Below are positions 22,466 to 25,904 of a DNA stretch of 36,680 nt, in pieces. How positions within the stretch are numbered: position 1 is the first letter of the stretch; each line of letters starts with the position of its first letter. The stretch lies in assembly GCA_905612405.1 (NCBI GenBank), contig CAJQRX010000030.1, positions 1 to 36,680 of the forward strand. The letters are read 5' to 3'. A program made the position numbers and the translations under genes. The notes under the pieces are model-generated. The model saw nothing but the letters and a program-made list of their open reading frames with translations, did not search any database and had not been told where the DNA came from. This stretch comes from an uncultured Candidatus Thioglobus sp. Lineage in GTDB: Bacteria; Pseudomonadota; Gammaproteobacteria; PS1; Pseudothioglobaceae.

Positions 22466-23389
22466 ATGACTACTCATGATGCTCCAAGGTTTATAACTGT
22501 TGATGAGTTTTCAATTGGGCAGCGACTTGATAATTATCTAATTAAGCAGCTTAAAGGTGTGCCAAAGTCCCGTATTTATCGAATTATTAGAAAAGGTGAA
22601 GTCCGCGTTAATAAAGGTAGAAAAAAAGCAGACTATAAGCTTGTTTCTGAAGATGTTATTCGAATTCCACCTATTAGAACCTCTACTGAAAAGGATATCA
22701 ATCCATCTGATGGACTTCTTAAATTGCTTAATTCTTCAATTCTTTATGAGGATAAAGGCTTATTAGTACTTAATAAGATACATGGAATGGCAGTTCACGG
22801 CGGAAGTGGAGTCACTATTGGAATTATTGAAGCACTTAAAAGCCAATACAAAGAGCCGATTGAACTTGTCCATCGACTTGATAGAGGAACATCAGGATGT
22901 TTAGTTCTTGCTAAAAAACGATCAGTATTAAAATCATTCCATGAGCAGTTAGTCAATCATCAAGTGGAAAAGCGTTACATTGCACTTGTTAAAAATAGCT
23001 GGAGTAAGAAAAAGCATACTATTGATGCGCCGATTTATCAAAACTCAAGGAATAGTGTTATTGATTCAAAAGGAAAAGACTCAGTGAGTCATTTCCATCC
23101 AATCAAAAATTTTCTTATGGATGATGAAAGCGCTTCACTAGTTGAAGTAGCTATAGAAACTGGAAGGACTCATCAAATTAGAGTCCATGCAAAGTATGCT
23201 GGTCATCCAGTAGCCCAAGATGATAAGTATGGTGATAATAGTTTTGATCAATTAATGAAAAAGAAAGGGTTGAATCGACTTTTTTTACATGCTAAATCAA
23301 TTGTTTTTACAAACCCTATTACTAATGAGATACAAAAAGTAACAGCTCCCTTGCCTAATGATCTTGAAGAATTTTTAAATAAACTATGA
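22466..23389 (+). CDS. rluC: RluA family 23S rRNA pseudouridine synthase, RluC-like
   Basis: S4 domain (IGQRLDNYLIKQLKGVPKSRIYRIIRKGEVRVNKGR) and catalytic HRLDRGTSGCLVLAK, TGRTHQIRVHAKYAGHPVAQDDKYG. The internal ATG at 22466 is preferred to the listed start at 22382, which overlaps tatD. Confidence 0.92.
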   Translation: MTTHDAPRFITVDEFSIGQRLDNYLIKQLKGVPKSRIYRIIRKGEVRVNKGRKKADYKLVSEDVIRIPPIRTSTEKDINPSDGLLKLLNSSILYEDKGLLVLNKIHGMAVHGGSGVTIGIIEALKSQYKEPIELVHRLDRGTSGCLVLAKKRSVLKSFHEQLVNHQVEKRYIALVKNSWSKKKHTIDAPIYQNSRNSVIDSKGKDSVSHFHPIKNFLMDDESASLVEVAIETGRTHQIRVHAKYAGHPVAQDDKYGDNSFDQLMKKKGLNRLFLHAKSIVFTNPITNEIQKVTAPLPNDLEEFLNKL

Positions 23390-24228
23390 ATGCATATATT
23401 CGCTTAATGAGGCTTGATAAGCCTATTGGGTCATTATTACTTTTATGGCCAACTTATTGGGCTTTATTTCTAAGTGCAGATGGATGGCCTGATTTAGATA
23501 TATTAATTATTTTCACTTTGGGAGTTTTTATAATGAGAACTGCTGGGTGCGTTATTAATGATTTTGCTGATCAAAAAATTGATAAACATATAGTAAGAAC
23601 TCATAAAAGACCTCTTGCTACTGGCGAGATTTCATCCAATTCTGCATTAATATTATTTGGTCTGTTATTACTCCTTGCATTAGGCTTAGTTCTGCAAACT
23701 AATCTCTTAACTATTAAATTGTCTTTAATCGCGCTTTTACTGGCAACTTTATATCCTTTTACAAAGCGCTGGACTAATTTACCACAACTAGTTTTAGGCG
23801 CAGCATTTGGAATGAGCGTGCCTATGGCTTTTAGTGCTCAATCTGAAGCGATACCTTCCACTGCTTGGCTAGTTTTTATTGCAACTCTAGTTTGGACGTT
23901 GATTTATGATACTTTTTATGCAATGGCTGATCGCGATGAAGATTTAAAGATTGGAGTAAAGTCAACGGCAATTCTTTTTGCAAAATACGATCAAATTATT
24001 ATCACTTTATTGCAAATTTTACTAATTATTGTGTTTGTATTAATTGGCAATAGTTTCGATTTAGGGTTAATTTATGACTTTTCTTTAGTTATTATTGCAT
24101 TTTTTATGATTTACCATCAATTTTTACTGAAAAAACGCCAAAAAGAAGAATATTTTAAGGCATTTATTAATAATAATTTCATTGGTATGACCGTATTCTT
24201 AGGAATTTTTCTGTCTGTAGTAACCTAA
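23386..24228 (+). CDS. ubiA: 4-hydroxybenzoate polyprenyltransferase (UbiA)
   Basis: RLDKPIGSLLLLWPTYWALF, MRTAGCVINDFADQKIDKHIVRTHKRPLATGEIS, YDTFYAMADRDEDLKIGVKSTAILF. Confidence 0.95.
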   Translation: MNAYIRLMRLDKPIGSLLLLWPTYWALFLSADGWPDLDILIIFTLGVFIMRTAGCVINDFADQKIDKHIVRTHKRPLATGEISSNSALILFGLLLLLALGLVLQTNLLTIKLSLIALLLATLYPFTKRWTNLPQLVLGAAFGMSVPMAFSAQSEAIPSTAWLVFIATLVWTLIYDTFYAMADRDEDLKIGVKSTAILFAKYDQIIITLLQILLIIVFVLIGNSFDLGLIYDFSLVIIAFFMIYHQFLLKKRQKEEYFKAFINNNFIGMTVFLGIFLSVVT

Positions 24229-24313
24229 GCTTTAATTCTGTTGTTTTTTTGCAACATTTGAGCAAATTTACGTCATTTTGGCCTTTTTTTTGGCTTTTTT
24301 TCATCAAGAAAAC

Positions 24314-24340
24314 TTGACACTCTGTTTTTGTTACTATAAA
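24314..24340 (+). promoter_or_regulatory. Sigma70-like promoter of small-protein gene copy 1
   Basis: TTGACA (24314-24319) and TATAAA (24335-24340), 15-nt spacer, conserved in copy 2. Confidence 0.7.
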
Positions 24341-24395
24341 AAGTCCATCAATCAGCAAGAATGTTGGTTATCTTAAAAACAAATGGAGAGAAAAT

Positions 24396-24617
24396 ATGTT
24401 AAGTAATGTAACTGGTTGGATAAAAAAATTAACTGAAGCTGGTGTTGGTCTTGTAGCACTTGCAGTTGTTGTTCAAGTAATATTTGGTTCAAATGCTCCA
24501 TACCTACCTGGTGATGTAGTTGCTAGGCTTACGGATATGATCGGTGCTCTAGGTGGTGCTGGCTTAGTTGGTTTAATTACAGCAGGATTGTTGTATACAA
24601 TCTTTTCTTCTAAGTAA
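24396..24617 (+). CDS. Small hydrophobic protein of unknown function (73 aa), two predicted membrane segments
   Basis: MLSNVTGWIKKLTEAGVGLVALAVVVQVIFGSNAPYLPGDVVARLTDMIGALGGAGLVGLITAGLLYTIFSSK. Strong SD GGAG, own promoter and terminator, and a nearby paralog. Confidence 0.9.
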   Translation: MLSNVTGWIKKLTEAGVGLVALAVVVQVIFGSNAPYLPGDVVARLTDMIGALGGAGLVGLITAGLLYTIFSSK

Positions 24618-24633
24618 TACGTATTAACTCAAT

Positions 24634-24662
24634 AAAAAACCCGCCTAATGGCGGGTTTTTTA
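24634..24662 (+). terminator. Rho-independent terminator of small-protein copy 1
   Basis: AAAAAACCCGCC-TAAT-GGCGGGTTTTTTA. Confidence 0.9.
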
Positions 24663-24725
24663 TTAGCTGAATAAAATTCCTCATGATGAAGTTAGCTAAT
24701 TTAAGTCACTAGATATCTAGAAAAC

Positions 24726-24752
24726 TTGACACACTCATTTTGATACTATAAA
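24726..24752 (+). promoter_or_regulatory. Sigma70-like promoter of small-protein gene copy 2
   Basis: TTGACA (24726-24731) and TATAAA (24747-24752), same 15-nt spacer as copy 1. Confidence 0.7.
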
Positions 24753-24760
24753 AAGTTTAT

Positions 24761-24782
24761 CAACCAGTAGAGAATCTGGTTG
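24761..24782 (+). promoter_or_regulatory. Leader hairpin upstream of small-protein copy 2
   Basis: CAACCAG-TAGAGAAT-CTGGTTG, perfect 7-bp stem. The equivalent in copy 1 is AATCAGC (24350-24356) / GTTGGTT (24363-24369). Confidence 0.65.
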
Positions 24783-24806
24783 TCTTAAAACAAATGGAGA
24801 GAAAAT

Positions 24807-25025
24807 ATGTTTGATAATATAATTGGTTGGGCAAAAAAATTAACTGAAGGCGGCGTAAGTATTATTGCACTTGCTGTTGTTGTTCAAATAATTTTTGGAG
24901 ATCAAGCTGCATTCCTACCTGGTGATGTTATTGGGAGACTTACAGATATTATTACTGGGCTTGGTTCTGCAAACTTAGTTGGTTTAGTTGCAGTTTTTTT
25001 GTTATACAAAACCTTTACTAAGTAA
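24807..25025 (+). CDS. Small hydrophobic protein of unknown function (72 aa), paralog of the preceding gene
   Basis: MFDNIIGWAKKLTEGGVSIIALAVVVQIIFGDQAAFLPGDVIGRLTDIITGLGSANLVGLVAVFLLYKTFTK. About 60% identical to copy 1 by hand alignment. Confidence 0.9.
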   Translation: MFDNIIGWAKKLTEGGVSIIALAVVVQIIFGDQAAFLPGDVIGRLTDIITGLGSANLVGLVAVFLLYKTFTK

Positions 25026-25041
25026 TTCATATTAACTCAAT

Positions 25042-25070
25042 AAAAAACCCGCTTTTAGGCGGGTTTTTTA
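25042..25070 (+). terminator. Rho-independent terminator of small-protein copy 2
   Basis: AAAAAACCCGC-TTTTAG-GCGGGTTTTTT. A/T symmetry suggests it may also serve dapD-side convergent transcription. Confidence 0.88.
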
Positions 25071-25088
25071 TTACTTTGAAAGATGTAA

Positions 25089-25904
25089 TTAAATTCCTCG
25101 TAGTAGCTCATTAATTCCAACCTTAGATCTTGTTTTAGCATCAACTTGTTTAACTATAACGGCGCAATAAAGTGAATAGCTTCCATCTGCTGACGGAAGG
25201 TTGCCAGAAACTACCACAGAGCCTGCAGGTATTCGGCCATATGTTACTTCACCTGTCATTCTATTAAAAATTTTAGTTGATTGACCAATATAAACACCCA
25301 TTGAAATAACAGCACCTTCTTCAACGATAACGCCTTCAACTACTTCTGATCTAGCTCCAATAAAGCAGTTATCCTCTATGATTGTTGGGCTCGCTTGTAA
25401 TGGTTCCAGTACTCCACCAATACCTACGCCACCTGAAAGGTGAACATTTTTGCCAATTTGAGCACAAGAACCTACAGTAGCCCATGTATCGATCATTGTT
25501 CCAGAATCAACATAAGCACCAATATTTACATAAGATGGCATTAAAACAGTATTTGACGCTATATAAGATCCTCTCCTAGCAGTTGCTGGAGGAACTACTC
25601 TTACGCCTGATGCTTGAAACTCTTCAGCTGTTGTATTTGCATACTTGGATGGCACTTTGTCATAGTACTGCGTAAAACCAGATTGCATAGGGACGTTATC
25701 TGCAAGTCTAAATGAAAGCAATACCGCTTTCTTTAACCATTCATTAACATGCCAGTCACCAATCCCTCTTTGCTCTGCAACTCTAGCTTTTCCTGAATCG
25801 AGGAGATGGATTGCTTCATCAACAGCCTGTTTAATTTCTTTGCTTGCAGAATCAGGAATAATATGCGCTCGATCTTCGAATGCGGCTTCAATAATATCTT
25901 TCAT
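25089..25904 (-). CDS. dapD: 2,3,4,5-tetrahydropyridine-2,6-dicarboxylate N-succinyltransferase
   Basis: 271 aa. Hexapeptide-repeat protein with [58 protein letters not shown]. Confidence 0.96.

Follow-up and report, generated by a model that had tools for sequence, protein, structure and literature searches.

A family of small, predicted membrane proteins shared by marine Thioglobus relatives and phages, with a candidate structured RNA leader in the phages

The window, as the whole stretch of DNA analysed here is called, is 36,680 nucleotides long and comes from an uncultured Candidatus Thioglobus sp. (contig CAJQRX010000030.1). Between genes for a UbiA-type prenyltransferase (ubiA, 23386–24228, forward strand) and a DapD-type tetrahydrodipicolinate N-succinyltransferase (dapD, 25089–25904, reverse strand), both families being named from sequence, lie two short open reading frames on the forward strand. 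These are copy A (24396–24617) and copy B (24807–25025), predicted to encode two-helix membrane proteins of 73 and 72 amino acids, respectively, with 411 nt from start to start. The original prediction described two duplicated, self-contained cassettes with proteins about 60% alike and control regions at least as conserved as the coding regions, and all of this was borne out: both reading frames have a full set of signals, the proteins are 61% identical, and the DNA identity between the units is 84% over the upstream 92 nt and 81% in the 3′ region vs. 74% of nucleotides in the coding sequence. The alignment score of the two upstream regions lies about 14 standard deviations above that of shuffled sequences.

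In unit A, a promoter (24314–24342) is followed by a leader hairpin, AATCAGCA-AGAA-TGTTGGTT (24350–24369), a Shine-Dalgarno GGAG (24385–24388) and, beyond the reading frame, an intrinsic terminator, AAAAAACCCGCC-TAAT-GGCGGGTTTTTT (24634–24661). Unit B has the same layout, with its promoter at 24726–24754, the leader hairpin CAACCAG-TAGAGAAT-CTGGTTG at 24761–24782, GGAG at 24796–24799 and the terminator AAAAAACCCGC-TTTTAG-GCGGGTTTTTT at 25042–25069. All are on the forward strand and were read from the sequence; the promoters (among orthologs, for unit A) and the terminators are also conserved, the hairpins show covariation, and each terminator consists of a GC-rich hairpin and a T-run. The TTGACA and TATAAA hexamers originally proposed for the promoters are exact in both units (24314–24319 and 24335–24340 in A, 24726–24731 and 24747–24752 in B), but their spacing is 15 bp, and the true −10 element of both may be a shifted hexamer, TAAAAA/TAAATT, behind a 17-bp spacer (TAAAAA at 24337–24342 in A and 24749–24754 in B). 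The constant arrangement across 29 orthologous leaders is indeed TTGACA, about 17 nt, and TAAAAA or TAAATT.

A generic promoter and terminator scan of the window listed neither the promoters nor the terminators of A and B, since the promoter spacing is non-standard and the T-run of each terminator pairs with an upstream A-run. That the signals are not due to chance is argued by two observations. The unit of promoter, hairpin, Shine-Dalgarno, reading frame and terminator was found again in essentially all Thioglobaceae copies examined, and across the 29 host leaders 96% of the hairpin pairs are kept, with 17 double-change cells that were matched by none of 500 shuffles. The hairpin signal was destroyed by sliding the pairing partner. 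As far as sequence signals can tell, A and B are each a complete, terminator-bounded transcription unit with strong expression signals, as had been foreseen.

The lineage was correctly recognised as SUP05/Thioglobus, and the gene is at home there. It is present in 49 of 83 genomes of the window's GTDB family and in 25 of 29 genomes of its genus, counts that rest on draft genomes of varying completeness, and the named relatives that have it include Candidatus Thioglobus, Pseudothioglobus, SUP05, Ruthturnera and a Bathymodiolus symbiont. Copy number varies as anticipated: the window's genus usually has two tandem copies, with three in the complete genome G008, and SUP05 and related symbionts have a single copy, which in SUP05-type genomes lies at the same site. 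In the Thioglobaceae loci whose flanks were read, the copies directly follow ubiA and in most of them the reverse dapD comes next, with an extra gene intervening at the ubiA-dapD site in L061. One SUP05-type copy lies on a contig labelled Verrucomicrobiales (L079), probably through horizontal transfer or misbinning.

With medians of 0.18 (A) and 0.14 (B) and no value above 0.34, dN/dS is far below 1, which indicates that both copies are under purifying selection in the Thioglobaceae. The tree places the A copies in a single group and joins A and B in another that is supported, which is consistent with a tandem duplication in Thioglobus/Pseudothioglobus. Within the window's lineage the gene is inherited vertically as a core gene, duplicated into A and B. 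It was not found in group g5 of the family (0 of 12 genomes) nor in 11 of the 12 g8 genomes, and is thus dispensable in some lineages; two g9 genomes, G065 and G069, have copies interrupted by stop codons. Judging from their genome size and their named relatives or members, the g5, g8 and g9 groups look like animal symbionts.

The expectation of membrane-type proteins from an undescribed family also held, as no credible match was found in searches of Pfam, NCBIfam, PHROGs and the PDB, and no profile of a characterised family claimed the proteins. An AlphaFold2 model of copy B (mean pLDDT 89.9, pTM 0.62) has helices at residues 2–30, 41–54 and 58–71, and its Foldseek search returned no match at E ≤ 10 in the PDB or BFVD, a search in which a 72-residue helical model has little power. 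Mean charges of −1.0 for the loop, +1.5 for the C-terminus and near zero for the N-terminus suggest a topology of two helices with both termini inside and an acidic outer loop. The family has no conserved histidine, cysteine or glutamate that would hint at an enzyme. Sub-threshold NCBIfam matches to Na+/H+ antiporter subunit G and malonate decarboxylase (at most 17.5 bits against cut-offs of at least 149) and weak Pfam matches such as PRD1_DD (15.9 bits against 46) were set aside as chance. Homology to the channel MscL (PF01741) is plausible by eye, as both have an N-terminal amphipathic helix, then two membrane helices and a superficially similar ...LAV...FG...D[IV]I string, but the family protein is half as long, hhalign gave probabilities of 0.5% and 0.3%, and there was no Pfam or PDB match, so this candidate was rejected. 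MscL itself was found in none of the 83 Thioglobaceae genomes, with 10 of 14 control genomes positive.

Profile searches also recovered distant cellular homologs. Other gammaproteobacterial families have tandem pairs (G113, G363, G420, G184 and G300), and G307 has a single homolog with a long Lys/Thr-rich tail, 183 amino acids in all (L034, 1150–1701, reverse strand). Marine Rhodospirillaceae and other alphaproteobacterial metagenome-assembled genomes carry the gene as well; in L090 it is followed by a second paralog with a significant score (E 1e-6), and in L082, L084, L086 and L088 by a gene of similar size and appearance (E 0.018–0.78) that is a candidate paralog. A phylum-wide sample gave no further convincing match. 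In L032 and L033, which belong to two different families, a tRNA-like sequence, recognised by eye, comes after the tandem pair on the opposite strand.

The more interesting part of this work is the phage side, with its hundreds of homologs and with leader RNAs in host and phage, none of which figured in the original prediction. In IMG/VR, at least 546 viral contigs encode a relative of the gene, and a second profile found 108 contigs that partly overlap with the first set; these contigs are predicted viruses, mostly fragments, and their host assignment is indirect. Together with the distant paired homologs, they show that the description of A and B as orphan reading frames was wrong. Five different queries against 50,697 GenBank phage records gave no match, and neither did a viral scan with an f103-type query.

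Phage hallmark genes lie near the family gene, including those for tail tube, tail sheath, head closure, terminase and portal, and homologous genes are thus found in both phage and host genomes, as would be expected of a phage auxiliary or moron gene. The phage copies occupy at least seven unrelated neighbourhoods, marked by nrdA/nrdB, dsrC, a permuted tmRNA, terminase, an MscS-like gene, a porin and a lysozyme, many of these neighbours having been identified by eye. In the nrdA-[gene]-nrdB context, some contigs also have an Fe-S assembly gene (about 40) or, immediately before the family gene, dsrC (four: L148, L151, L152 and L153), and in most records tested a permuted tmRNA lies just downstream. 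The latter was recognised in T4-like marine phage contigs as tmRNA* by ARAGORN and as Rfam RF04321, at 4105–4437 in L148, 5372–5681 in L151, 5273–5605 in L152, 5318–5635 in L162, 2073–2274 in L332 and 4263–4465 in L356.

In other phages, the gene stands before the terminase gene, preceded in some of them by an MscS-like gene (13) and by an ammonium transporter (5; PF00909). The MscS-like gene is short and has a stretch that resembles the MscS beta domain (PF00924; E 0.0012, slightly short of the curated cut-off); it precedes the family gene and terminase in L319–L322, L324, L328, L354, L358, L359, L361, L362 and L365, sometimes itself following the transporter. Six contigs have the family gene before a porin-like gene, of which cluster n17 was named from sequence, with no Pfam match, and the porin in L109 has a Pfam match. 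Further contexts lie between a gene of unknown function and a 5′-3′ exonuclease gene, next to the tail tube gene, and, in five contigs, directly before a T4-type lysozyme (PF00959), and a sub-threshold GTA_holin_3TM-like gene is nearby in about 19 loci. On the whole, the phage neighbours are metabolic or membrane genes rather than lysis modules, and pore-type neighbours (MscS-like, porin) are seen in only some phage groups. A second, more diverged copy is present in two of 38 phage records (G830, 46122–46334; G831, 219202–219414).

On the tree, the phage label must change three times or more if well-supported branches alone are counted, and six times in the best tree, although few forks are resolved on the roughly 73 columns used and the direction of transfer is inferred. 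Repeated transfer is likely on account of those supported changes, and marine phages have thus likely captured the gene several times as an auxiliary, moron-type gene.

Many phage copies also appear to bring their own control signals. T4-late-type TATAAATA sites lie no more than 220 nt ahead of the gene in 14 of 78 loci of one phage set and 31 of 79 of another, against about 2 expected in each set (1.9 for the first set of 78 loci, from 0.024 per window searched); for sigma-70-type promoter pairs the counts are 32 of 78 and 21 of 79. Any promoter-like site was present at 46 of 78 and up to 52 of 79 loci, the overlap in the second set being uncounted. A strict terminator test was passed by 28 of 158 phage copies, compared with 14 of 2000 random windows.

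A strict pattern, a short hairpin and then AAACTANTTT at 31–35 nt before the start codon, occurs in 66 of 159 phage loci. In each of 29 distinct leader sequences all four inner pairs are formed, with up to four pair types, and there are 38 double-change cells (reached in 0 of 500 shuffles); the outermost pair is unsupported. A covariance model of the leader gave 31 matches in 644 kb and 49 in 528 kb, 80 over the 159 phage loci together, and all of them lie just upstream of a start of the family gene; the apparent exception, in L169, precedes a partial second copy broken by N in the assembly. As the model was built from these leaders, their recovery is by construction, and the informative part is that there were no matches elsewhere. 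The model had no significant match in the window or the host loci, and the leader had no match in Rfam. It is described as a new candidate structured RNA leader, phage-only and gene-specific, with a 4–5 bp stem, a YGNRAN-like loop and then AAACTANTTTT, 31–35 nt before the start. A pattern scan of viral contigs with AAACTATTTTTTAA alone was of no use, returning unrelated contigs, as the pattern is too short to be specific.

What might such a protein do? The reading that we favour, at a little under an even chance, is that of an abundant, oligomeric inner-membrane protein that supports the permeability or integrity of the membrane and is supplied by phages during infection; an oligomeric membrane or structural component was among the roles first suggested, is possible, and is our leading guess. 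The protein would work as an oligomer in the inner membrane, A and B perhaps together. A phage would drive its copy with a promoter and leader of its own, and by supplying the protein would keep up or raise a host membrane function during infection, in the manner known for psbA in cyanophages. That the membrane protein should form an oligomer, and that the oligomer should bear on permeability, is drawn from the size, the topology, the lack of enzyme-like residues and some of the phage neighbours, and the membrane topology, high abundance and benefit to the phage are likewise inferred. Literature searches on expression of the gene in SUP05 found nothing specific. Cyanophages carry psbA as a captured host membrane-protein gene that is run from phage signals, and the present family is alike in being a host gene for a putative membrane protein found in marine phages behind phage signals. 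However, psbA has a known function and turnover, whereas the repeated capture proposed here comes from a tree of short alignments.

That phages carry the family suggests that viruses take over a membrane function. The broader proposal, that an undescribed core gene of abundant marine bacteria has been captured repeatedly by phages, often behind a gene-specific RNA leader, and that a host membrane property is thereby taken over under RNA-level control, is put forward tentatively and could well prove wrong. Annotation of microbial and phage genomes is poorest for small membrane proteins, and free-living SUP05/Thioglobus are a major player in the carbon and sulfur cycles. This family is uncatalogued in every curated library searched, yet it is present in those free-living bacteria and in the hundreds of ocean virus contigs noted above. 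If phages do capture the gene repeatedly, it would mark some process at the membrane by which infection of these hosts is limited, and which process that is could be approached directly through the conserved leaders.

The main rival, itself rather unlikely, is superinfection exclusion or phage resistance, in which the inner-membrane protein would block incoming phage DNA, with hosts expressing it constitutively as a defence and phages using it to exclude competitors. The moron-like architecture in phages, with its own promoter- and terminator-like sites, fits this, as do the sigma-70-type promoters and the small size and predicted inner-membrane location of a phage-encoded protein. So does the distribution, the gene being kept in most free-living-type genomes and missing or interrupted in the g5, g8 and g9 genomes described above, which, as possible animal symbionts, may have less exposure to phages. 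HK97 gp15 is a small inner-membrane protein. It is a phage moron with bacterial homologs, the YebO proteins (PMC6379469), and resembles the present case as a phage-carried gene with relatives in bacterial genomes. The present family differs in occurring in hundreds of contigs from several phage groups, with structured leaders. On the other side, the stable position as a core gene beside housekeeping genes and the T4-late-type promoters, rather than early expression, do not suit exclusion, and PHROGs gave no match to a known exclusion family. Exclusion factors also usually diversify, whereas the sequence of this family is very conserved.

It is improbable, though possible, that the protein is a class II holin-like lysis protein, which would make holes at the end of infection and of which the cellular copies would be relics or regulated lysis proteins. 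The size of about 72 amino acids, the two helices, the predicted topology and the basic C-terminus recall the S21 pinholin of phage 21; the loop and C-terminal charges fit, and the N-terminal charge is near zero. The lysozyme neighbour, the GTA_holin_3TM-like gene and the late-type promoters in some phage loci point the same way. Against this, there was no match to a holin family in Pfam or PHROGs, most phage contexts are without a recognisable lysis gene (as judged with few profiles and by eye), and the GTA_holin_3TM-like neighbour may itself be the holin. For the cellular copies the idea is disfavoured, as two conserved, apparently constitutive chromosomal copies with a strong promoter and under purifying selection in streamlined cells are not what such a protein would lead one to expect. 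The bacteriocin-like peptide first suggested is unlikely as well, because a tandem chromosomal gene behind a strong promoter has no immunity or export gene adjacent to it.

That the protein serves sulfur oxidation or some other respiratory complex, as a small subunit or an assembly factor, is very improbable, and a sulfur-oxidation component was rejected, for although dsrC lies directly upstream in the four phage contigs, DsrC is found in 7 of 38 phage records and DsrA in 4 of 6 gammaproteobacterial carriers outside the Thioglobaceae, the latter is not significant (binomial about 0.08, by hand) against a DsrA baseline of 111–117 of 369 in the same class sample, and the gene does not follow dsr/sox in its distribution, with G007 (a complete genome of the window's genus) and the carriers G113 and G363 being without DsrA and SoxY, and G033 having both without the family gene.
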